Of a DNA stretch of 64,000 nucleotides, positions 44,044 through 54,547 are shown one piece after another. This DNA is from Gammaproteobacteria bacterium. GTDB taxonomy: Bacteria; Pseudomonadota; Gammaproteobacteria; Granulosicoccales; Granulosicoccaceae. The notes under the pieces are model-generated. The model was not told where the DNA came from. It made no database searches and worked only from the letters and a program-made list of their open reading frames with translations. A program made the position numbers and the translations under genes. The stretch covers positions 30,127 to 94,126 of the forward strand of contig JAHQVR010000197.1 in the NCBI GenBank assembly GCA_019634245.1, written 5' to 3'. Each line of letters starts with the position of its first letter. The first letter of the stretch is position 1.

Positions 44044-44286
44044 TTACAGCTGCCGCACATCTGCTCTGAACCTATTCAACCAATGGTCAATGGCAAGCCA
44101 TTTTTCAAAGTGCTTAAACGCAGAATCATTCGTGATTAAAGTGGCATTAACGGCTGCAGCATGAGCACCGATAAGCAGGTCTCGGTTGCTCAAACTAACA
44201 CCTTTAGATTCGCCGAAGGCGCGTAACAAGGCATAGGATTCTGCAGCATCTGAACCCGAAAGGCATTTTGTCTTAACTCTTGCCAA
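44044..44286 (-). pseudogene. VapC-like PIN-domain toxin remnant, C-terminal part only
   Basis: An 80-codon frame with TTG as the only start. Its body SNRDLLIGAHAAAVNATLITND followed by FKHFEKWLAIDHWLN aligns with the C-terminal half of VapC/PIN endoribonucleases (conserved aspartate in NRDLLIGAHA and the D of TND). A full toxin has about 130 residues; the N-terminal half with the first catalytic aspartates is missing, as an in-frame stop lies 39 bp before the TTG and the pilin-like gene ends 24 bp upstream. No vapB-like gene is nearby. I take it as a decayed toxin gene cut at its 5' end; a small intact gene is less likely. Confidence 0.65.
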
Positions 44287-44310: not shown

Positions 44311-45045
44311 TTAAGGTAGCTGCCCAGATTTAACCAACCAATACACCAATTCACTCTTGCCCACCCAAACAAGCTGATCATCGAACGGTGTATCTGAATG
44401 AGAGCTGTAACTGCCTTGAAAAAATTGTTGATCACCATTTTGATTGACGGCTTGATCCGACTGAGCACTATCATCCTGCCCAAGCGAGTACACAACGAAT
44501 ACGGCGGCAGCCTCACGCCGCGGAGAGCCGAGACAGTCGTCCATTGAATCAACACAGACCCTCAAACCAGCCTTGAGAACACTGGCACCAACAGACTTTA
44601 TTTCATCCGAATGAACCCAATCATCCCACACTGAATTACCCAGCGACTCATGGTTAGATTGACTTAACGAGTACCGAATAGGCCTGTGCCAAGCATCGAG
44701 CAAAACACTGTGTGATGGACCTGCACCGTCAGAGTGCCAAAAAGATGAAGGAATTCCTCCCGAATACGAAACGCAGTTGCCATCCTCGTCAACGACAGTT
44801 TGCTCGTGTACGTTCAGTGGTATGGGGCAAGGCAAACGCCCATGTGACATCGCATAGCCGAGAATAACCTTCGTTACGGTCTGCAGTTGGCTGCTGGTTT
44901 TACTCTCATTTTGCCTCTGTATTCGCAGACCCATCGGTGTCATCAACGATCCCGCTAGTACACTGAGCACGGTGAGTACAATAGCAAGTTCGATGAGCGA
45001 AAACCCTCGTAACGAGTGCACGATTTGCCTATCAAAGCGGATCAC
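44311..45045 (-). CDS. Prepilin-type protein with LPCP domain
   Basis: A 244-residue pilin-like protein; GTG start at 45045 overlapping the stop of the preceding gene (GTGA). Class III leader of 14 residues ending G, then FSLIELAIVLTVLSVLAGSL: cleavage after Gly14 and the Glu at mature position 5 are present. The globular part has VTKVILGYAMSHGRLPCPIP, a pattern shared with the next gene upstream, and four cysteines (LPCP, GNC, RVCVDSMDDC) that may form disulfides. It is much larger than major pilins (about 150), so a minor or tip pilin is likely. Last gene of the MSHA-like operon. Confidence 0.85.
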   Translation of the reverse strand: MIRFDRQIVHSLRGFSLIELAIVLTVLSVLAGSLMTPMGLRIQRQNESKTSSQLQTVTKVILGYAMSHGRLPCPIPLNVHEQTVVDEDGNCVSYSGGIPSSFWHSDGAGPSHSVLLDAWHRPIRYSLSQSNHESLGNSVWDDWVHSDEIKSVGASVLKAGLRVCVDSMDDCLGSPRREAAAVFVVYSLGQDDSAQSDQAVNQNGDQQFFQGSYSSHSDTPFDDQLVWVGKSELVYWLVKSGQLP

Positions 45046-46040
45046 TGGGCATTCTCAGGTGATAGCCCGATCCACACTTTGTCATTATCTATGGAGTACT
45101 TTTTAAGAACACGAAACTGACAGTGGGAACGCTCAGCTGCGCGACAATTGGTGTCGACTATTAATCCCAGACTCTCATACCACCGATTACGTAAAAACCA
45201 ATGCCGATGCGAAAGCTCTGTGTTATCGATAATTTGATCCAACGAATCTTCACAATCGGAGTCACTCAGATCTGTAGTTAGCCAGATCAGAAAACCGACA
45301 CCCGAAAATCGATTTTGCTCGGAGCCTTCATCGGCGCATACCTGTTCTAAATACGGCTTACACGAGGCTCCCTGCTGGGCACATCGCCTCTCTCCAGCTT
45401 TGGATAACCTTCTCACAGCCCAAGTGGCAACCCGCAAGGCAGCACTGTGAATAAAATCACTTGCATATAGTGTCACAGTGGGATAACGAGCCAAACGACT
45501 CGCAGCCATAGGTAGTAACGGTTGTTGTGAGAACACCTGTTCCAGCAACGCTTGGGCTTGCATCTGTGCCATAGAATTTGGCAGCTGTACAAGAAACGCC
45601 ACTGCTTCCCTTAGCGTAGTATCGGCTACCGATAGATTAACTAGCCGGTTAACTGGATTGTTAATGAAATTTGAAGACACCACATACCATAGCCGACCAT
45701 CCGCTGGAGATAAGAAGCGATAGGATTGATCCGAAAATTGAATGTAACTGGGCAACAGACCAATGGCATACCTACCAGATCCACACGGGGGATTGGGACC
45801 AGCCTTCAATGGCAATGAAGGACTATCAGTGTCATCGGTATCTGGGCACGGCAAATGCCCCGGCCCTGCGCCATTGACTCCATAAAGATCTTGATAGCTT
45901 GTCGCATAGGCGATCAAACTCAAACGAGCATCCCCAAGAGGCTTAGGCCATCGAGATTGATCATCGATCGAATTCTCAGACAACCCCAGAAAGCTTAACA
46001 GCGTTATCAAGAGCAACCATGAGCCAGTCGTTAGCTTCAT
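45042..46040 (-). CDS. Secreted cysteine-rich protein with pseudopilin-like LPCP domain
   Basis: A 332-residue protein from ATG 46040 (MKLTTGSWLLLITLLSFLGL, a Sec-type signal; an in-frame codon at 46064 would add eight residues). It lacks a prepilin cleavage motif. ARLSLIAYATSYQDLYGVNG followed by GPGHLPCPDTD and DGRLWYVVSSNFINNPVNRL is the pattern of a pilin-associated family whose members usually sit behind a pilin helix; the same LIxYA...LPCP core is in the neighbouring pilin. Eight cysteines in the mature part suggest a disulfide-bonded exported protein. Role unknown; tip adhesin or pilus-associated subunit are guesses. Confidence 0.72.
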   Translation of the reverse strand: MKLTTGSWLLLITLLSFLGLSENSIDDQSRWPKPLGDARLSLIAYATSYQDLYGVNGAGPGHLPCPDTDDTDSPSLPLKAGPNPPCGSGRYAIGLLPSYIQFSDQSYRFLSPADGRLWYVVSSNFINNPVNRLVNLSVADTTLREAVAFLVQLPNSMAQMQAQALLEQVFSQQPLLPMAASRLARYPTVTLYASDFIHSAALRVATWAVRRLSKAGERRCAQQGASCKPYLEQVCADEGSEQNRFSGVGFLIWLTTDLSDSDCEDSLDQIIDNTELSHRHWFLRNRWYESLGLIVDTNCRAAERSHCQFRVLKKYSIDNDKVWIGLSPENAQ

Positions 46041-46041
46041 A

Positions 46042-46902
46042 CTATTGCACGTTTGGCCCAACAACCAGGCTTAATTTGGATCCGCCACGCAAGTGCAGCC
46101 TCAATTTCTTTCCATGATCGAACAGCTCAGCTGATTCAATTTCTGGGTGTTTCTCTACTGGCAATCCATCGATAAATAATTGTGTATCAGCCCCAAGAAC
46201 CAATCCTGTTAGCCGGTAGCGACGCTTTGACCTGGATTCATAACGCTTTGTCTTTGGCGGCGGCGTAGCCACAACAGCAGAGGCGTGTTCTATTCGCTGC
46301 TGTGGTTCGTTCTCGTTGGTTGTTACGCCTGCCATTGTATTGGTGTGGTACACATCAAAAACGCACTGCAATTGAGTTGTCTTAGAGAACGTATAATTGC
46401 AATGCCGAACTTCAAGCGGCCAGGGTGAAATCGCTGCTTGTATTCTTGTACGGATCGCGATCATCGGGCTTGTTAAATCTGATGCATAGCTAATGCGTAT
46501 CCGGGAAACAAACACCCCCGGATCATCTTGAGAATCTGCGACACTCACTTTCGGATACAGCCTGACGGGCTCTTCAACACTTAATTCCATTAAATGGATG
46601 CCTAGGTTTTCACGGGAGTTTTTGACAGACTCATGAATCGCTAAGTTTAGTTCTCGCATCGTTTCTTTTAACGTAGCCTGTCCCACTTGTGGCGTCGAAT
46701 CCGGAGGAAAAGCATCGTTTATAGATAGATCGACGGCAGTCCAGTGATTGTTCTTAAGATGCAAACCTCGCAACTCCTCCGCCATGTCCGCAGAAGGCCA
46801 ATACATTACAAACAGCAGAATCAATAGCGCACTGGTGACAATAAAAATACAAATCTTATACAACCAACGAGCGTGACATACCCTGGCGAACGTCACGTTC
46901 AA
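46042..46902 (-). CDS. PilO/GspM-like membrane protein with PilP/MshK-like C terminus
   Basis: A 286-residue bitopic protein: short cytoplasmic tail, membrane segment about 15-35 (ICIFIVTSALLILLFVMYW), then periplasm. The middle (75-165) looks like a ferredoxin-like assembly domain by length and position only. The end (228-282) RRYRLTGLVLGADTQLFIDG followed by EIESAELFDHGKKLRLHL resembles the small HR/MshK/PilP domain that touches the secretin. It would link inner-membrane platform and outer-membrane secretin. It starts with TTG 46902 overlapping the PilM-like stop (TTGA). A GTG at 46896 is an alternative. Confidence 0.6.
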   Translation of the reverse strand: MNVTFARVCHARWLYKICIFIVTSALLILLFVMYWPSADMAEELRGLHLKNNHWTAVDLSINDAFPPDSTPQVGQATLKETMRELNLAIHESVKNSRENLGIHLMELSVEEPVRLYPKVSVADSQDDPGVFVSRIRISYASDLTSPMIAIRTRIQAAISPWPLEVRHCNYTFSKTTQLQCVFDVYHTNTMAGVTTNENEPQQRIEHASAVVATPPPKTKRYESRSKRRYRLTGLVLGADTQLFIDGLPVEKHPEIESAELFDHGKKLRLHLRGGSKLSLVVGPNVQ

Positions 46903-48389
46903 TTCTGCGCAGACATTTCATCTTGAAGCACCATAAACACTGAATACGCTCCAGCGGAGCTATCATTCAAAAATAGATCATCCGTTGGAGCTACCAGTAG
47001 ATCAGCAGACCGGACAAAAGAAGCCGCTCGCAAGCGGTTTACAAACTCAACTATCTGCCCCTGTTGTTTTCTTGCACTCAAGTCTCCACTAACGACACCA
47101 GACAAGACAACATTTAAGTGCTCCGGAATTGGTCTTTCGAGATCAAGATCTCTGTACGACACGGTGTCATCAAGGTGCCCACCTTTAGAAAAGCTCAAGC
47201 GTTGTAGCTCAAGGTTTGAAAATTCCTTGTAAATATCTAATACGCCCTGATACCAACTCTCGAAGGCAGCCGGTGGTTCTGCCTGCAATGATTCCAGCGA
47301 ATTCAAACTGTCAACTAACATGCTCGCCTGCGGATGGATAGACAGTGCAGATTGTTTATGGGTTTGAATAGAGTCGTTTAGATGTTTCAGAGTTTCTTGT
47401 CTCTTTGAGCGTTGTGCAAACGCTTCAACGGCGATAGATGCGGTGACTATAACCATCATCACGGCAATACCGAGTGACAAAGCATTCGCAACCGCTACCC
47501 ACCGAAGTGAAACCGCCTGTTTTTGTGCATCACTAAACGACCATTGATGGGAAGCCAATACCGCTATTCGACCAAAGCAGCGCCACTTGGTAAAACTCAA
47601 TCGAGTGGCAGATTTAAGCACATTGATCATGCCAGTCCAACGCTGCACTTCTAAAGGTATTTGAATATCTGTTTCGGGACCATGAACCATCAGTTTGGCA
47701 ACAGCTGAACCGGTACTTAATATTTGCCGTTGCTCTGTTAGCCAGTTATCTCCTCTTAATAATACTGGGACACCCTCATCGACAAGACCCTCTGCTTGCA
47801 AATACTCAATCGCATCCAGTACAGCTTGAGCCTCCTGACCAGTTACCACTCGACGGCTCGATACAAATGTGGCTTCACCCGCAGATGCGAACACCAGGCG
47901 TAACTCACTACCTTGGTCAAACTCTAACGTATCCACACAGAGGGCTGATTGTCGACCAAAGCTCCGGTATAGCTCCGATGAGATGGACTCTGAGTAGGAA
48001 TTCACAGTTGATATACGACCGATTCGCGAATAGTTCTCCAACCATTGCTGGATTGAGTCAGGCAGGGATACGGTGTTGATAATAAAGCGAGCTTTAGTGA
48101 CAGGAAAACGCAAATACACAATTCGACTATTAGGATAATCTTGCTTAAGCTGAGCAACGAAATGGCGTCTAGCGAAGTAATCACGCCATAGTCGACCTAC
48201 CCTTACCCACTGTATGGTTTCGATGCTTTCAAGCTCTGCGGCAATAAACACACGAAGCGATTCATTCATCTTCGCTACTGCGGGAACATCGGGCAGGCTA
48301 AGCTCACCTCGACCATTAAAAGAGGGACTCAAATCCTCGACAGAAAAAATCATCACCGAGTCTTCCTCCACGGCGATTACCTGGCTCAT
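46899..48389 (-). CDS. PilM-PilN / GspL-like bitopic assembly platform protein
   Basis: A 496-residue protein from ATG 48389, overlapping the GspF-like stop (ATGA). Cytoplasmic N-terminal part of about 295 residues (weak PilM/GspL actin-like character: LCVDTLEFDQGSELRLVFAS), one membrane segment at about 298-322 (WVAVANALSLGIAVMMVIVT), then a helical stretch (about 323-400) and a PilN-like periplasmic domain. This is the topology of GspL or of a PilM fused to PilN. In T4P it would couple the cytoplasmic motor to the PilO-like partner, which is the next gene. Family assignment rests on topology and place more than on motifs. Confidence 0.6.
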   Translation of the reverse strand: MSQVIAVEEDSVMIFSVEDLSPSFNGRGELSLPDVPAVAKMNESLRVFIAAELESIETIQWVRVGRLWRDYFARRHFVAQLKQDYPNSRIVYLRFPVTKARFIINTVSLPDSIQQWLENYSRIGRISTVNSYSESISSELYRSFGRQSALCVDTLEFDQGSELRLVFASAGEATFVSSRRVVTGQEAQAVLDAIEYLQAEGLVDEGVPVLLRGDNWLTEQRQILSTGSAVAKLMVHGPETDIQIPLEVQRWTGMINVLKSATRLSFTKWRCFGRIAVLASHQWSFSDAQKQAVSLRWVAVANALSLGIAVMMVIVTASIAVEAFAQRSKRQETLKHLNDSIQTHKQSALSIHPQASMLVDSLNSLESLQAEPPAAFESWYQGVLDIYKEFSNLELQRLSFSKGGHLDDTVSYRDLDLERPIPEHLNVVLSGVVSGDLSARKQQGQIVEFVNRLRAASFVRSADLLVAPTDDLFLNDSSAGAYSVFMVLQDEMSAQN

Positions 48390-49417
48390 AGCAAACCTCC
48401 TACCTCTATCAATCGTTGATAAATGGGTAAAAACACACCCAGCACTATCCAAAGCAGAATTCCACCTGCGAATAGATAGGACAGAGGCACGAGTTTTTTG
48501 AAGAATGATTCAATTCGGTTTTTTTCTTGCGTCAGTAGCAGATGACCGATCGTTTCAATGCGCTGTATAAACTCTCCGCTTTTCTCAGAAAGCGTTAGCA
48601 TTGAAATCAGTCCCTGAGGTATCAAATGCTCAGTCTGTACACTTTGTGAGAAAGCCTGTCCACCGGAAACCGCTTCACGAACCCTCTTAAGCCTGTTGCA
48701 AAGCTTTTTATCAGCACACAGATTCTCACCTACCTGCATGGCTCTAACAAGAGGCAGCCGATGGCGTAGAAGTACCGCGATTGTTCGATAATATCGGACT
48801 AAATGAAAACGGCTAAAAATATAAACGGAATCTGTAGGCAAGCGGCGTCTTACGAAAAACAGCAGCAGTAAAACAGCCGCTACGAACACCCCAGGTAACA
48901 GTCCTGAATCTATTACTTCATGAAGGCGAATTAGATTCAATGAAAAAAAAGAGTGTGATACATCGCCTTTATCCATAAAATCTGTAGCTTTTGGCACTAG
49001 ATAAAGGATTTGGAATAGCGCAGCGGCAAACAATACACTAGAAGATATCAGTGGATACCAAAGGCTACTAATTAAAGATTTTTTAAGAGTAAATAGCCAG
49101 TCACGATATTGATTGATCTCTCGAATCGCCTGAACCAGGTTGCCAGTATGCTCCGCTTGCCGCACCAGCGCTACAGCAAGACCGCCAAACACATCTTCAT
49201 GAACAGCCAGCACATTGGCTAAACTACGGCCTTGGTTAAGCTGGGATCGTATGTTTGTGGTAATAGGCTTGATTGAGTGAGATACAGGAAAGCGCTCTAA
49301 GTACTCCAAGGCATCGGCAACTGAATAGTGGGCACTGAGTAACTCTTCAAACAACTCCAAGAATCTAGAGACATCTTCGCTGGGGACTTTGTTAAGCTTC
49401 ATCAAGCGCACAAGCAT
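48386..49417 (-). CDS. GspF/PilC/MshG-like inner membrane platform protein
   Basis: A 343-residue type II secretion F-type protein with two repeats, each of a helical cytoplasmic bundle followed by membrane segments: FLELFEELLSAHYSVADALE / SSVLFAAALFQILYLV in the first, IAVLLRHRLPLVRAMQVGEN / LFAGGILLWIVLGVFLPIYQ in the second, with one further membrane segment at about 200. SMLTLSEKSGEFIQRIETIG is the family-type loop. It is slightly shorter than PilC (about 405). ATG 49417 is used; TTG 49423 overlaps the motor stop. Confidence 0.88.
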   Translation of the reverse strand: MLVRLMKLNKVPSEDVSRFLELFEELLSAHYSVADALEYLERFPVSHSIKPITTNIRSQLNQGRSLANVLAVHEDVFGGLAVALVRQAEHTGNLVQAIREINQYRDWLFTLKKSLISSLWYPLISSSVLFAAALFQILYLVPKATDFMDKGDVSHSFFSLNLIRLHEVIDSGLLPGVFVAAVLLLLFFVRRRLPTDSVYIFSRFHLVRYYRTIAVLLRHRLPLVRAMQVGENLCADKKLCNRLKRVREAVSGGQAFSQSVQTEHLIPQGLISMLTLSEKSGEFIQRIETIGHLLLTQEKNRIESFFKKLVPLSYLFAGGILLWIVLGVFLPIYQRLIEVGGLL

Positions 49418-49419
49418 GA

Positions 49420-50787
49420 TCAAACACCCATCTCGCCGACGATGGGAGTGGCCTCCAAAACTCCAAACACCCGCTCAAACTCCGCTGGTTCGATGACCCC
49501 CTGGGTTAACAAAGAACGAGCTGTCCTCCACATGGGTACAAAACCACTTAACGTCGCATACGTGTCTAATCCACTCAATTCCGCAGGTGTACAAATACAC
49601 TGCCTTACTGCCTCAGTAATCGGCAATACTTCCACCACCGCTTGACGTGATGTGTGATTTAATGAGTCTCCTTTAGTTCGTACTCGAACCAAACGTTGAC
49701 TGACCACCATGCTCAAAGACGCAGCCACCATCTCAGCATCACCGCTTAGGTCTATAAGTCTGCGGAGTGCCAGTATGCAATTCGCGGCGTGAACGGTTGA
49801 CAACATCAAGCGGCCACTGAGTGTTGCTCGTAAGCATTGCTTTACCGATTCAGAATCCCGCAATTCACCAATCAATAACACATCCGGATCTTGCCTAAGA
49901 ACAGCCCTAATGGCTTGAGCTAAATTCATTTTGTTTAAATTACCCAAGGACGTTTGTCGTACACGTGGCAATGAAAATTCAACTGGATCCTCCAACGTCA
50001 TCACGTGATTCGTATCGTTCTCCAACTCCCTTAACATGGCATAAAGAGTGGTAGTTTTTCCGCTACCAGTGGGTCCGCAAAGTATTATTAATCCGTGTGT
50101 TGATTTCAGACCTTGATGCAATAACTGCAAGGAATCTGCAGAGGTAATTAATTGGCTCAGCGATTGCCAGGAGCGTTGTTTTTGAACTCTCACAACGGTG
50201 TTCTCACCGTTTCGCACAGGGAAAGTTGAGACCCGGAAATCAACAGCCTCATCAAGAACATTGTGGCGAATCAAACCATCTTGGGGCATTCGCGATTCTG
50301 CGATGTTCATTTCGGCTAACACTTTAATGCGAACCAAAATGGCTTCTAACCAGGACTTGGTTATAGAGCATACGGGTTCGAGAACACCAGCAACACGAAA
50401 CCGAATTCTCAGAGAATCATCTTCCGGTGATAAATGAATGTCAGAAGCATCGCGAATAACTGCATCTTGGAACAGGGCCTCTACCAGTTCAACCGCAGGA
50501 GTCTCATCCTCAGAGCTCGATGAGTATTTTAAAACCACGGTTGAAAGTGCGAATCGATTTCCATAGGCCGCATTCAGCCCGCGTTGCACTTCCAGAGCAG
50601 ACATCGGCTGCCAGTCCAACTGCATGGTCATTGTCAGACAGTGTTTAACCTGTTCGCGCAGCTGAACATTTGGCTCAACGGCAACTCCCAATCGAAGCGT
50701 GATTCCGTCACTAAGAATTGAAATGGGCAGTACACACAGGCGACGAGCATCGAATTCATTTATCAGCAAGGTGGCATCCTTTTTCAC
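49420..50787 (-). CDS. GspE/PilB/MshE-like motor ATPase without zinc motif
   Basis: A 455-residue hexameric assembly ATPase. Walker A CGPTGSGKTT at 237-246, Asp box MTLEDPVEFSL, Walker B VLLIGELRDSES, His box STVHAANC; AESRMPQDG and the arginines around SDIHLSPEDDSLRIRFRV are in place. The four-cysteine zinc element of GspE/PilB/MshE is missing: the stretch after VSQRLVRVR goes straight to the C-terminal domain. The N-terminal region is short (about 100 residues). It is adjacent to the secretin (10 bp) and overlaps the GspF-like gene. Confidence 0.9.
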   Translation of the reverse strand: MKKDATLLINEFDARRLCVLPISILSDGITLRLGVAVEPNVQLREQVKHCLTMTMQLDWQPMSALEVQRGLNAAYGNRFALSTVVLKYSSSSEDETPAVELVEALFQDAVIRDASDIHLSPEDDSLRIRFRVAGVLEPVCSITKSWLEAILVRIKVLAEMNIAESRMPQDGLIRHNVLDEAVDFRVSTFPVRNGENTVVRVQKQRSWQSLSQLITSADSLQLLHQGLKSTHGLIILCGPTGSGKTTTLYAMLRELENDTNHVMTLEDPVEFSLPRVRQTSLGNLNKMNLAQAIRAVLRQDPDVLLIGELRDSESVKQCLRATLSGRLMLSTVHAANCILALRRLIDLSGDAEMVAASLSMVVSQRLVRVRTKGDSLNHTSRQAVVEVLPITEAVRQCICTPAELSGLDTYATLSGFVPMWRTARSLLTQGVIEPAEFERVFGVLEATPIVGEMGV

Positions 50788-50797
50788 CTGGCTTCTC

Positions 50798-52309
50798 CTA
50801 CGTAGATACCATTGGATGAAGCAGAATAATCAGCTCAGACTTGCGATTAACCTCTTTTATCGATCTAAAGAATCGCCCCAGCAAAGGAACATCTCCCAAG
50901 AAGGGTATTTGGTTCTCCACCGTGTCTTTGCTGTCTTGAATCAATCCGCCAATCACAGCGGTTTCTCCATTTTCAATTCTCAGCAATGATTCCATTTCCC
51001 GAACCTGGATTTCAGGCACCCCGTTGGTGACATTGGCGGCCGCCAATTCTGGATTAGGATCATTAACAAACCCCAAAATACGCGATAGTGTCGGTCGGAT
51101 ATTCAGCATCACTGCATTATCGTCGCTGATAAACGGAGTAACGTTCATAACCAGGCCAACAGGAACCGTTTTGATTTCGGTTTGCGTGACAACTTCATCG
51201 CGACTATCGCTACTACGTCGCTCCACCTGTACAGTGAAATACACTCGATTGTCGACCACTTTCAAAACTGCTGACTGGTTATTCAATGCAAGCAATTGAG
51301 GCCGAGAGATAATATTGACATCGCCAAATTGCTCCAATAGGCTCAGCGTCGTCGCAACATCTGTTGAGCCGTCTTGAAACACCCAACTCATAAGCCCAGT
51401 GGGTGCAGGCAGACGATCAACAGTCTCTTCACTGAGCACGGGGGATTGTGTTAAGACTGAAGCAGCATTCAGTGACGGCAGTCGTTGTCCGATCACTTGC
51501 CAATCGACACCTGCGGAGAATTCCTCTCGAAGAACAACCTCCAAAACGGATGCCTGTATGAGCACCTGCTTCTCAGACTGGGAGGCTAGCCGCTGTAAGT
51601 ATTGATCAAGCGCCGCATGTGCCTCATGAGAGCCATACAGCGTAATAAATCCAGCATCTCGATTGATCGTAGCAATCGGATTACCACCGAGAGCACTTAG
51701 CAACTTTTCAACATCAGACTCTACCGATGACCAGAATGTGTGATCAACAGCGTTTTCAATTCGCGTTTCCGAACTGTTGGCCACCAAACCAGCACCTTGT
51801 GTCGTGCTGTTAATCGTGCCAACTTGAGTAGCGAGCCCAACAGTACTGACCATACGGCGATTAAGATTTAAATAGTTAACTGGATAAGTATCGGTATATG
51901 GTGTTGCACCCCAAATATGCAGCACCGAAAACTCAATTTCCCAATGCAATGGGGTTTGAGAGGACAGCCGTGACAGCGTTGCATCCAAAGACAAGTCTTG
52001 GGAACGGAAAGTCACTCGCGCATCTAGCTCATCGTGTAACTCCAACCCTAAACCGGCATCGGTTGCCAGCGCATAAAGCAGGGTCGGTAATGCCATATCT
52101 ACAGCATTGACTGACAAGGTGTGCGCTTGGTCATCAATAGGTGCAGCACTGGGCGCGCTCTTGGTTGATACAGCAGCAGGAACAGCCGCGTCGCCACTTA
52201 ACCAATCCAGAAGCTCGTTATTAGAAGAAGAGTCGGGTGTGCCACAGCCGTACACAAGACAAGAAAAAGGTAGGCACAATAGAAAGCGTAGTAAAAACCA
52301 AAAGCTCAT
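50798..52309 (-). CDS. MshL-like secretin (lipoprotein)
   Basis: A 503-residue outer membrane channel protein. Signal sequence with a candidate lipobox LVYGC (Cys22; Tyr at -2 is unusual). STN-like domain about 65-118, secretin N-type domain about 186-245 (SSVESDVEKLLSALGGNPIA), and the secretin core 247-500 with NIISRPQLLALNNQSAVLKV, VGLVMNVTPFISDDNAVMLN and the signature FLGDVPLLGRFFRSI...ELIILLHPMV. The size and single N domain are like MshL, and much smaller than PilQ or GspD. The ATG overlaps the stop of a four-codon mini-frame in the leader. Confidence 0.9.
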   Translation of the reverse strand: MSFWFLLRFLLCLPFSCLVYGCGTPDSSSNNELLDWLSGDAAVPAAVSTKSAPSAAPIDDQAHTLSVNAVDMALPTLLYALATDAGLGLELHDELDARVTFRSQDLSLDATLSRLSSQTPLHWEIEFSVLHIWGATPYTDTYPVNYLNLNRRMVSTVGLATQVGTINSTTQGAGLVANSSETRIENAVDHTFWSSVESDVEKLLSALGGNPIATINRDAGFITLYGSHEAHAALDQYLQRLASQSEKQVLIQASVLEVVLREEFSAGVDWQVIGQRLPSLNAASVLTQSPVLSEETVDRLPAPTGLMSWVFQDGSTDVATTLSLLEQFGDVNIISRPQLLALNNQSAVLKVVDNRVYFTVQVERRSSDSRDEVVTQTEIKTVPVGLVMNVTPFISDDNAVMLNIRPTLSRILGFVNDPNPELAAANVTNGVPEIQVREMESLLRIENGETAVIGGLIQDSKDTVENQIPFLGDVPLLGRFFRSIKEVNRKSELIILLHPMVST

Positions 52310-52346
52310 AACAAATCCATTTGTCGGGGCAGTCCTTCCTGGACTG
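52306..52346 (-). promoter_or_regulatory. Secretin leader: mini-frame and 6-bp hairpin
   Basis: On the minus strand CAGTCC-AGGAA-GGACTG (52346-52330) forms a 6-bp stem whose loop carries the purine-rich AGGAAGG. Ten bases later begins ATG GAT TTG TTA TGA (52320-52306), whose stop overlaps the secretin ATG at 52309. The arrangement could couple secretin translation to the mini-frame or hide the ribosome site in the stem. Confidence 0.35.
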
Positions 52347-52415
52347 TTCTTCGTATGAGACTACAACACTAAGCGTTGATTAATCTCTTGCAATCACGAA
52401 AGCTCTGAGCAAAGG

Positions 52416-53381
52416 CTACACAGCAACCAGTGCTATCGCAGCGGCCATCGAGGCCACGATGCCAAAGCCGAACACCATCACCACACCTCGACGGTGGCGG
52501 ACCAAGAAAGAGCGTTTCACCGGCGATTCAGGTTTAGCCGGTAAGCCCGCCATCATAAGATGAGACATCGACAAACGATCAGCATCTTCCAGGCTAGCAA
52601 TCATGAAAGCATTGCGTGCCAGGTTGTTGATCGTTCGAAACACTCCATCAGAGCGATCGGCGATGAAATAGGCCATTTCACGTGTGAATAAGTACCGCCG
52701 ATTAAAATCGAACAGCAACATGTGGTGGTGCAGATACTCCGAGATCTCCGCCAGGGTCAATCGCCTCAAAAAGTGCTCGGGAGCAGAGGCCGACAGCGGT
52801 TGGGTGGGTGCGCGATCATCGCTGGGTTCGAACAACACAAACTGAAATACTGGCTGTCCATAGGTTTCCAAAGAGGCCAGTTCCTCTAATACCAGTCTCG
52901 CTCGATGCTCTAAACGCTGCGACGAATCGATTATCAGTAAAAAGGGCTTGTCACCCGGTAAGGGCCCCAACAGCGCGGCACGCAGCCGGGTTATGGCAGC
53001 TTCCATAACTTCTTCACTCGCACCGCGCGAAGCTTCTTTGAGCGATATGATGGCGGCGTCGCCTGAACAAATTTCGATCAGCAAATGACGGATGACGCTT
53101 TCCAGACTTAAATGACTGTGGTCATAACGGATAATGTTGTAACGATGTTGCAGCCGCTCGGCGACCACCAGACTCATCATCGTCTTACCACTGCCCTTTT
53201 CACCGGCAATCGTAATCGAAACTTGCCCGTCGGAAAGCGACCGTATCGTGCCATCGATTAACTGGCCACGATCACCACCACCAAAGAACAAGAAAATGTT
53301 ATTGGCATTATGAAACGGTCCGTGCGTTGCGGAGTAATACTGCTTTCGATCAGCACCAACACTAGAGTCTTTCAAACCCAT
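52416..53381 (-). CDS. ExeA/MshM-like AAA protein with C-terminal membrane anchor
   Basis: A 321-residue protein of the ExeA/GspA/MshM family. P-loop AGEKGSGKT (59-67). The Walker B position reads FLLIIDSSQRLE (Asp152): the residue after Asp is Ser, not the usual catalytic Glu. AAA lid region YLHHHMLLFDFNRRYLFTRE and RSDGVFRTINNLARNAFMIA. A membrane segment lies at the C terminus (about 297-320). It lacks the periplasmic peptidoglycan-binding part of ExeA. Family members help secretin assembly or pilus biogenesis; here it is the first gene of the locus, 106 bp before the secretin. Confidence 0.82.
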   Translation of the reverse strand: MGLKDSSVGADRKQYYSATHGPFHNANNIFLFFGGGDRGQLIDGTIRSLSDGQVSITIAGEKGSGKTMMSLVVAERLQHRYNIIRYDHSHLSLESVIRHLLIEICSGDAAIISLKEASRGASEEVMEAAITRLRAALLGPLPGDKPFLLIIDSSQRLEHRARLVLEELASLETYGQPVFQFVLFEPSDDRAPTQPLSASAPEHFLRRLTLAEISEYLHHHMLLFDFNRRYLFTREMAYFIADRSDGVFRTINNLARNAFMIASLEDADRLSMSHLMMAGLPAKPESPVKRSFLVRHRRGVVMVFGFGIVASMAAAIALVAV

Positions 53382-53441: not shown

Positions 53442-53457
53442 ATTGAGCACGCTCAAT
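53442..53457. promoter_or_regulatory. Operator-like palindrome between the pilus-like locus and trmL
   Basis: ATTGAGC-AC-GCTCAAT, a perfect 7-bp inverted repeat in the 172-bp divergent region, 61 bp before the AAA gene and 97 bp before trmL. As both genes point away from it, a terminator is unlikely; a regulator binding site is the better reading. A TCCGG...CCGGA repeat also flanks the proximal part of the region (about 53399-53435). Confidence 0.45.
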
Positions 53458-53553
53458 CGAATAGTGCATATTCATATAGTTTGTGGATTTACTTTACTCA
53501 AGTTAAGTTCAACACATCTTGTGTTTCACCCATTTGTGACAATAGATTGGCGT

Positions 53554-54030
53554 ATGTTTCACATCATTTTATTTGAACCAGAAATTCCACCAAACACCGG
53601 TAACGTCATTCGATTGTGTGCCAATAACGGCTGTGTATTACACCTCATTGAACCTTTGGGTTTTTCAATGAACGAAAAAGCGTTACGACGTGCAGGGTTG
53701 GATTATCACGATACTGCCAAGCTGCACATCCATGCGAATGCTGAGCGCTGCTTCAATGCAATTAAAGCTATGGGCTCACGGATTTATGCATTGAGTACAA
53801 AAGGTACAACTCGCTATACAGAGGGGCGTTATCGAGACGGCGATGCATTCTTATTCGGCCCGGAAACTCGCGGCTTACCAGAAGAGATACGCAATCACGC
53901 AGAAGTGGAAGAAGTGTTGACGCTACCGATGCAGGCTAATAACCGAAGCCTGAATTTATCTAACGCGGTGGCGATAGTCAGCTATGAGGCCTGGCGACAG
54001 CAGGACTTCAGCGGTGCCATTGACCGCTAA
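53554..54030 (+). CDS. trmL: tRNA (cytidine(34)-2'-O)-methyltransferase TrmL
   Basis: A 158-residue SPOUT enzyme that methylates ribose 34 of tRNA-Leu. ATG 53554 (MFHIILFEPEIPPNTGNVIR) is the family start; an in-frame codon at 53443 lies in the intergenic palindrome. Knot motifs: LFGPETRGLPEE and LPMQANNRSLNLSNAVAIV. It is convergent with secB, 10 bp apart. Confidence 0.97.
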   Translation: MFHIILFEPEIPPNTGNVIRLCANNGCVLHLIEPLGFSMNEKALRRAGLDYHDTAKLHIHANAERCFNAIKAMGSRIYALSTKGTTRYTEGRYRDGDAFLFGPETRGLPEEIRNHAEVEEVLTLPMQANNRSLNLSNAVAIVSYEAWRQQDFSGAIDR

Positions 54031-54040
54031 CGGCTGTAAG

Positions 54041-54547
54041 TTACTGCGGTGTTTCAGAACTGGGTGCGTTCTGCTTCGCTTGTTGCACATGCTGTGCGTA
54101 GAGCGCATCAAAATTTACTGGGTCGAGCAGCAACTGAGGGAAGCCGCCTTTTTGCACCAATGAAGCAATTTCTTCACGCGCAAACGGAAACAGGATATTC
54201 GGGCAAAAACTACCCAGCATGGGCGCCATACGTTCTTCAGGTATGCCCGAAATCTGGAACAATCCGGCCTGCTTTACTTCTATCAAGTAGGCCACCTCAT
54301 CTTCGAGCTTGACGGTAACCGTCACGGTCAACACACTCTCAAAGAGGTTGTTGTCGTGCTTGGCGGTTTCCGTGTTTAGGTGCAAGGATACGGCTGGCTG
54401 CCAGCTTTTATTCGTGGTGAATATCTTTGGAGACAGTGGCGATTCGTACGAGCAGTCCTTTAAGTAGACGCGCTGGATTTTAAACACCTGTCCTTCAGAG
54501 GCAGGTTTCGTGTCACCGGCGGCGGCCGGAGTGTCGGGTTCAGTCAT
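54041..54547 (-). CDS. secB: Protein-export chaperone SecB
   Basis: A 168-residue tetrameric chaperone that holds preproteins unfolded for SecA. FKIQRVYLKDCSYESPLSPK and QAGLFQISGIPEERMAPMLG, FCPNILFPFAREEIASLV and FPQLLLDPVNFDALYAQ are characteristic. The N terminus is somewhat long and Ala/Thr/Asp-rich. It belongs to the rhodanese-grxC-secB group. Confidence 0.96.
   Translation of the reverse strand: MTEPDTPAAAGDTKPASEGQVFKIQRVYLKDCSYESPLSPKIFTTNKSWQPAVSLHLNTETAKHDNNLFESVLTVTVTVKLEDEVAYLIEVKQAGLFQISGIPEERMAPMLGSFCPNILFPFAREEIASLVQKGGFPQLLLDPVNFDALYAQHVQQAKQNAPSSETPQ

Follow-up and report, generated by a model that had tools for sequence, protein, structure and literature searches.

The described system closest to the one analysed here is the mannose-sensitive haemagglutinin (MSHA) pilus. 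In the available portion of the survey of the type IV filament superfamily, one MSH system was found among 309 representatives and 191 were found later, with 884 systems left as 'generic' (PMC6668835). The motor of the Vibrio pilus, MshE, is described in the accessible part of another study as binding cyclic di-GMP (c-di-GMP) through its N-terminal domain (PMC4624765). We examined a stretch of 64,000 nucleotides (the window) from a gammaproteobacterium of the family Granulosicoccaceae (GenBank assembly GCA_019634245.1, contig JAHQVR010000197.1, positions 30,127 to 94,126), in which eight genes at 44311-53381 form a compact locus. We consider it probable that the products of this locus assemble a type IV filament from a lineage sister to MSHA, in which a pilin-like protein, K, would form the tip and a pilin encoded elsewhere, the KGQ pilin, the shaft, with adhesion as its presumed role.

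The eight open reading frames (ORFs) are intact and occupy the minus strand between 53381 and 44311, head to tail and all in one direction; the spacing is at most 106 bases, once, and all the other genes abut or overlap. An earlier note on this DNA had reported eight genes on one strand here, among them genes for an AAA protein, a secretin, a GspE-like motor, a GspF-like platform and a prepilin-type protein, and our ORF check and profile scans bore this out. The first gene (52416..53381) encodes an ExeA/MshM-like AAA protein of 321 amino acids with a membrane segment at its C-terminus and matches to Pfam AAA_16/AAA_22. Its TIGR03015 score of 24.6 bits is far under the NCBIfam cut-off, and its top model, a PEP-CTERM-related one, also stayed under cut-off. 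The second gene (50798..52309) encodes a secretin of 503 amino acids that belongs to the MshL kind by TIGR02519 (the MshL model) and the secretin tree. It scored 143.5 bits with Pfam Secretin and 239.5 bits with the MshL model, the cut-off of which is 250.2. Because relatives such as L061, whose secretin scored 255.7 bits, pass this cut-off, it cannot separate MSHA from the lineage described below. The third and fourth genes encode a GspE/MshE-like assembly ATPase of 455 amino acids (49420..50787; Pfam T2SSE, 292.8 bits, with motif alignment and trees) and a GspF/MshG-like platform protein of 345 amino acids (48386..49423; Pfam T2SSF, 106.7 bits). These two matches supply the ATPase and platform of the generic type IV filament model (PMC6668835), and the pilin with a class III signal that the superfamily requires is supplied by the last gene, PIL, through N_methyl and TIGR02532.

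Relatives were collected by a secretin scan of one genome per species, which gave 149 confirmed stretches; the best 80 of the 149 were kept. Every one of the top twenty (L001-L020) carries the label Granulosicoccus or Granulosicoccaceae and has a secretin 44-53% identical to that of the window, and the remaining sixty, at 31-43% identity, hold more Granulosicoccaceae and other gamma- and betaproteobacteria. We refer to 22 loci (L001-L020, L024 and L032) as Granulosicoccaceae-type, a group to which the window is assigned by trees and synteny. The eight-gene block was found again in identical order in Granulosicoccaceae loci, so its grouping is not a matter of chance, and no pilin set lies beyond the last gene in those Granulosicoccaceae loci with enough downstream sequence. 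Broader loci have an extra gene for a tetratricopeptide repeat (TPR) protein between secretin and motor. It was found in 42 of 43 broader loci, which is not a species count since several represent one genome fetched twice, and it was missing from all 22 Granulosicoccaceae-type loci showing secretin and motor (window counted; L011 is cut short).

The locus shares with MSHA a secretin of the MshL kind, an AAA protein, a motor and platform like MshE and MshG and, in its broader relatives, the TPR protein. Neither has a prepilin peptidase gene: none was found among the locus ORFs with the ORF list, Pfam and NCBIfam, as the earlier note had said, and MSH loci are given as lacking one in the portion of the superfamily survey available (PMC6668835). 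The two differ in gene order. Eight genomes (G017, G086, G100, G106, G111, G113, G139 and G152) were each mapped with both systems. One has a canonical-looking MSHA order of secretin, AAA, TPR, E, F and pilins, with PilM/N/O/P-like genes upstream, whereas the other runs AAA, secretin, TPR, E, F, MN, O, P, K and PIL, which is the type of the window. In G100 the two stand in succession. We named the second type the RLPCP system, after a motif in its pilin; the window fits the definition, with AAA ahead of the secretin and the scaffold genes followed by K and PIL. The TPR gene is optional in RLPCP loci. Their scaffold genes are only weakly like those of MSHA, and they carry the K/PIL pair whereas MSHA has its own pilin set beside the motor.

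Phylogenies placed the locus beside MSHA and not within it. Tree labels were assigned by gene order and profile scores, with no named references. The motor tree (78 rows) recovered MSHA, PilB and GspE groups at supports of 99, 100 and 100; the window branch is very long in it (2.56), and the Granulosicoccaceae motors of L016, L019, L024 and L032 fell nearer the broader set. The secretin tree (89 rows, with random subsets of 22 of 30 MSHA, 26 of 57 RLPCP and 8 of 12 outgroup rows) supported MSHA at 99 and RLPCP plus Granulosicoccaceae at 99, with the window next to L017 and L018 at 83. When motor, platform and secretin were concatenated (48 loci), MSHA received 100/100 and its sister, RLPCP plus Granulosicoccaceae, 100/100; within the latter, Granulosicoccaceae received 100/99 and RLPCP 97/99. 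The window branch was 1.64 here, and this tree fixes no nearest sister for the window. Motor and secretin lie outside canonical MSHA, so the branching inside MSHA that the earlier note had named as the mark of an ordinary operon was not found; its view of a relative distinct from MSHA was upheld by the phylogeny and by the neighbourhood survey, with no adjoining pilin set in Granulosicoccaceae loci. By these trees, the locus is a sister lineage of MSHA and not a trimmed MSHA operon.

The last two genes encode pilin-like proteins. PIL (44311..45045, 244 amino acids) is a prepilin with a GFSLIE signal and the RLPCP motif, matching Pfam N_methyl and, over cut-off, TIGR02532; NCBIfam models for GspG and GspH match it weakly. 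The preceding ORF, K (45042..46064), spans 340 amino acids, and a database copy of 332 amino acids fits an ATG at 46040 as the likely start. Protein searches gave 120 K homologues including K itself, and relatives have N-terminal leaders such as QSG/YALLLxxxxL. A K profile (54 rows) aligned with a PIL profile (42 rows) over 204 columns from the leader on, at 99.6% and E 6e-25. By a loose pattern, 55 of 58 K proteins have a Gly leader and none has Glu at position 5. Because of this homology and the leader without Glu5, K is most plausibly a pilin that lacks Glu5 and is a paralogue of PIL. The earlier description of K as a Sec-exported, Cys-rich protein was rejected on the same profile alignment. 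The K proteins of broader loci are longer, with a pilin-type region that by eye is apparently repeated. A PDB sequence search with the K profile gave no matches. The secretin, ATPase, platform, AAA protein and these two homologous pilin-like proteins are thus identified at the sequence level.

A third pilin accompanies the system in relatives. Some broader loci have an extra prepilin (GFTLVEIAIVLVIIGLLLGGVLKGQ..., with an LPGD motif) after PIL, and in L063 it stands before the secretin. We searched for this KGQ/LPGD pilin with the L132 protein as query. It was present in 20 of 20 genomes carrying the RLPCP system. In a class sample of 143 genomes, which includes the known carriers G002 and G017 and for which counts were tallied by hand from tables, 34 had strong matches (E 3e-20 or better, the next match being at 1.5e-11). 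Such matches fell in 28 of the 29 MN-bearing genomes and in 6 of the 114 others (Fisher p 9e-23); with MN or K as the marker, the numbers were 32 of 34 against 2 of 109 (p 4e-27). The sampled species are related, and these p-values therefore overstate independence; linkage is separate evidence. Of the 32 genomes that combine a strong KGQ match with MN or K, 16 have the KGQ pilin gene at most 8 kb away from K, PIL or MN, on one contig. As a control, we took the 15 genomes with top MshL scores (L081-L095); 12 were without MN and K, and none of these 12 had a strong match. In G001-G012, pilin and locus were on different contigs in 12 of 12, and neighbours of the pilin gene include asnS (L172 and L175) and a MlaF-like gene (L179, from G018). 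L069 (11704-13209) and L070 (19685-21257) carry a tandem pair of KGQ-type pilins after PIL. Within the window's 64 kb no KGQ/LPGD pilin was found (best tblastn E 1.1). The KGQ pilin encoded elsewhere is likely the candidate main filament subunit in relatives, which would explain a locus seemingly without a main pilin. The absence of a major-pilin gene thus stands for the locus itself and not beyond it.

How would such a filament be built? We propose that the pilins are matured in trans by PilD of the T4aP (type IVa pilus) locus. A prepilin peptidase was detected in 12 of the 14 genomes G001-G014 and stands next to pilB/pilC in G002 and G009, where the places were compared. K would start the filament and cap its tip, PIL would join K to the shaft, and the KGQ pilin would polymerise as the shaft; ATPase and platform would add subunits, and the filament would leave through the secretin. 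In relatives, co-occurrence and linkage speak for a shaft made of a PilD-matured KGQ pilin from another locus; the same is predicted for the window. The tip role is proposed because K, being without Glu5, resembles GspK of the type II secretion system (T2SS), which is a Glu5-less pilin. Surface adhesion, as for MSHA, is the most likely function by analogy.

The same resemblance feeds a different reading, that the locus is a T2SS-like device in which K and PIL form a short pseudopilus that drives proteins out by way of the secretin, with no long filament built. The few pilins in the locus, the missing Glu5 and the weak GspG/GspH matches of PIL fit such a device, and GspE, GspF and secretin homologues are indeed shared with T2SS. 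However, the window's motor, platform and secretin fall in another clade of the concatenated tree, with motor and secretin outside the GspE and GspD groups; its proteins score far under the NCBIfam cut-offs of the GspE, GspF and GspD models; and no cargo gene was recognised in the locus maps. A separate T2SS occurs in the same genomes as the RLPCP system in L111, L119, L151 and L164. Membership of T2SS was rejected, since the core proteins are outside its clade. The earlier note had taken the missing pilin to mean a short pseudopilus or a secretion device; two pilin-like genes in the locus and a third pilin that tracks the system across genomes do not favour this, and we regard a T2SS-like device as unlikely.

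Between platform and K lie the scaffold genes. None of the 517-, 286- and 340-residue proteins encoded downstream of the platform gene and ahead of PIL matched a family over cut-off in Pfam and NCBIfam scans. MN (46899..48452) is a 517-residue ORF for a bitopic protein in the PilM/PilN (MshI) position, identified by that position and its family's weak MshI profile match; the database copy of 496 amino acids points to a probable start near 48389. The next ORF (46042..46902, 286 amino acids) has profile matches to the O and P families: residues 42-191 match O (94.5%) and residues 228-285 match P (47%), which suggests a PilO-like and PilP/MshK-like fusion. Its place is taken by two genes in 10 of 12 relatives examined and by a single gene in L017 and L018 too. 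Against MSHA profiles, the TPR profile of broader loci matched MshN at 99.1% and the P profile matched MshK at 81.6% (E 1e-5). A protein search with the 517-residue protein alone returned only itself among the matches listed (7996 candidates), and a PDB sequence search with the MN profile gave three weak unrelated matches (E 0.11 or worse). We infer an inner-membrane scaffold of a PilM/PilN-like and a PilO/PilP-like protein. Of the two bitopic platform proteins that had been noted here, the scaffold position stands, and their identities become a protein at a weakly MshI-like spot and a putative O+P fusion.

Several results weigh against parts of the filament model. G070 and G073 have the RLPCP system without a strong KGQ match, and G080 and G090 have a strong KGQ match without MN or K. 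In the motor tree, RLPCP plus Granulosicoccaceae is supported at 85 only and Granulosicoccaceae are not united. For the scaffold, MN matched MshI weakly (23%, E 9e-4, over 257 columns), O did not match MshJ (1.9%), the C-terminal half of MN fitted MshJ (61.6%) better than MshI2 (19.4%), and a three-row set of single-gene O+P proteins gave 1% against the P family, with only the window protein alone matching it (47%). Because of these O and MN results, one-to-one naming of the scaffold subunits is unsure; a general PilM/N/O/P role is likely from position and weak profile similarity. When only Granulosicoccaceae were used, K and PIL aligned over just 71 columns (96.7%). Five K proteins had no Pfam domains and no adhesin domain, and therefore lend no support to a tip adhesin.

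The machine appears reduced in Granulosicoccaceae, as judged from its genes and motifs. The TPR gene is gone from it, in agreement with the earlier observation that no MshN-like TPR gene stands in the locus. In the motif alignment the window motor has all four catalytic boxes: Walker A, Asp, Walker B and His. It has no CxxC motif, of which all 16 aligned relatives have at least one and L017 and L018 just one. The motors of L004, L009 and L013, also from Granulosicoccaceae, have 15-18 cysteines, compared with 4-5 in the broader motors listed alongside them. The MshEN domain was detected in 8 of 13 Granulosicoccaceae-type motors scanned; the domain scan did not find it in those of L013, L017, L018 and L020, and none was among the matches listed for the window motor, down to E 0.07. 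With no detectable MshEN, c-di-GMP control through that domain has probably been lost in the window motor. The AAA protein keeps Walker A. The second acidic residue of its Walker B is missing from all 20 Granulosicoccaceae-type rows, whereas the 4 broader rows and the 3 MSHA rows in the comparison have it. This pattern points to a loss of ATP hydrolysis, and the protein may bind ATP and not hydrolyse it. The word 'minimised' in the earlier note was therefore apt for a locus without the TPR gene and with a motor lacking detectable MshEN and CxxC. Could the system be decaying and non-functional in this family? The long window branches of the motor and concatenated trees, the missing Walker B residue and the five of 13 motors without detected MshEN would agree with decay. 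But all eight window ORFs are intact, the catalytic boxes of the motor are kept, the block is retained at one site over many species, and a secretin of MshL grade is found in all of G001-G014; decay is thus quite improbable.

The genomic site also holds MSHA in some other genomes. The flank of the window locus, trmL (plus) and secB (minus) at 53443..54547, named by NCBIfam, is kept in relatives by synteny. trmL adjoins the locus in 19 of 22 Granulosicoccaceae-type relatives; of the other three, L016 and L020 begin within the secretin, and the 3.3 kb of upstream sequence in L015 contain no trmL and no AAA gene. It also adjoins the broader loci L027, L029, L041, L062, L064, L078, L131 and L144, and canonical MSHA in L137. 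A local deletion of the pilin genes from an ordinary MSHA operon, which the near-cut-off MshL score of the window secretin and the canonical MSHA at the trmL-gpsA-secB site in L137 (secB-gpsA in L139) might suggest, is very improbable indeed and was rejected by the motor and concatenated trees (labelled by gene order), because motor, platform and secretin are outside the MSHA clade with full support, the gene order differs, and both systems occur together in the eight mapped genomes. We infer, for the MSHA-sister filament machine, an origin by tandem duplication followed by differing losses, which would account for the shared trmL site and the adjacent systems in G100. Among G001-G014, 13 genomes had one MshL-grade secretin copy and G007 had two; with a single copy in 13 of these 14 drafts, most of them seem to be without canonical MSHA.

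Other features were noted around these loci. A split form occurs in L031/L166 (G013) and L033/L167 (G014), with the secretin at the trmL site without a motor and E-F-MN-O-P-K-PIL elsewhere. Seven genomes (G002, G003, G004, G006, G007, G009 and G011) have a second GspE-like ATPase on the contig of the locus, some 30-57 kb away; those of L113 (G007) and L121 (G009) have no F or secretin alongside, and that of L121 carries MshEN and T2SSE. A sigma-54 response regulator lies upstream of the three broader loci read, L061 (6009-7403), L067 and L036, with its domains shown for L061, where the top NCBIfam model is a PEP-CTERM-box regulator under cut-off. Beyond the last pilin gene of the window, an 80-residue ORF (44044-44286, minus strand) matches the C-terminal half of a PIN domain at 26.7 bits and is perhaps a toxin-antitoxin remnant. 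An Rfam scan of the window gave no matches.

Compared with T4aP, the RLPCP system has the common assembly logic and would draw on PilD of the T4aP locus, which is the peptidase that relatives have. However, motors of the PilB type group in a clade of their own, the PilB model gives 270 of 676 bits, and PilT/PilU are absent from the locus though present in the genomes of relatives. Membership of T4aP was rejected, as the motor is outside the PilB clade. The Pih pilus of Pelobacter, likened here by description, is likewise a small type IV filament system that departs from the usual pattern and has few pilins; in the part of its report available, the Pih major pilin lacks the PilD motif (PMC3543383), whereas PIL and the KGQ pilins have it.

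We found no description of the RLPCP system in the open-access PMC literature; the lineage may be among the MSH set or the 'generic' set of the superfamily survey (PMC6668835). We lean towards the view that it represents a class of its own among type IV filament machines, with MSHA as its sister, spread across gamma- and betaproteobacteria. Three things would have kept it from notice: the secretin is taken for MshL, the scaffold proteins and K pass as 'hypothetical' (the only name given to any of the 120 MN homologues listed among 457), and the gene for the shaft pilin is in many cases an orphan. In Granulosicoccaceae the machine would sit at the trmL site, which is that of MSHA in some other genomes, in a reduced form without TPR, with an AAA protein that maybe does not hydrolyse ATP and, in some species, without the c-di-GMP sensor of the motor. 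Type IV filament systems are usually recognised from one locus. Judged by its secretin, a whole sister group can be taken for MSHA itself, and where a locus seems to have no main pilin, the shaft may be encoded at another place in the genome. The Granulosicoccaceae offer a natural series of lost accessory parts and, probably, of lost c-di-GMP control, and the three-pilin model of tip K, linker PIL and KGQ shaft is testable in culturable hosts. Granulosicoccus is a common kelp symbiont, and the accessible sections of the study in question report type IV pilus genes in it and make no mention there of an RLPCP-like system (PMC9238374). An adhesion machine in kelp-associated Granulosicoccus would be of ecological interest.

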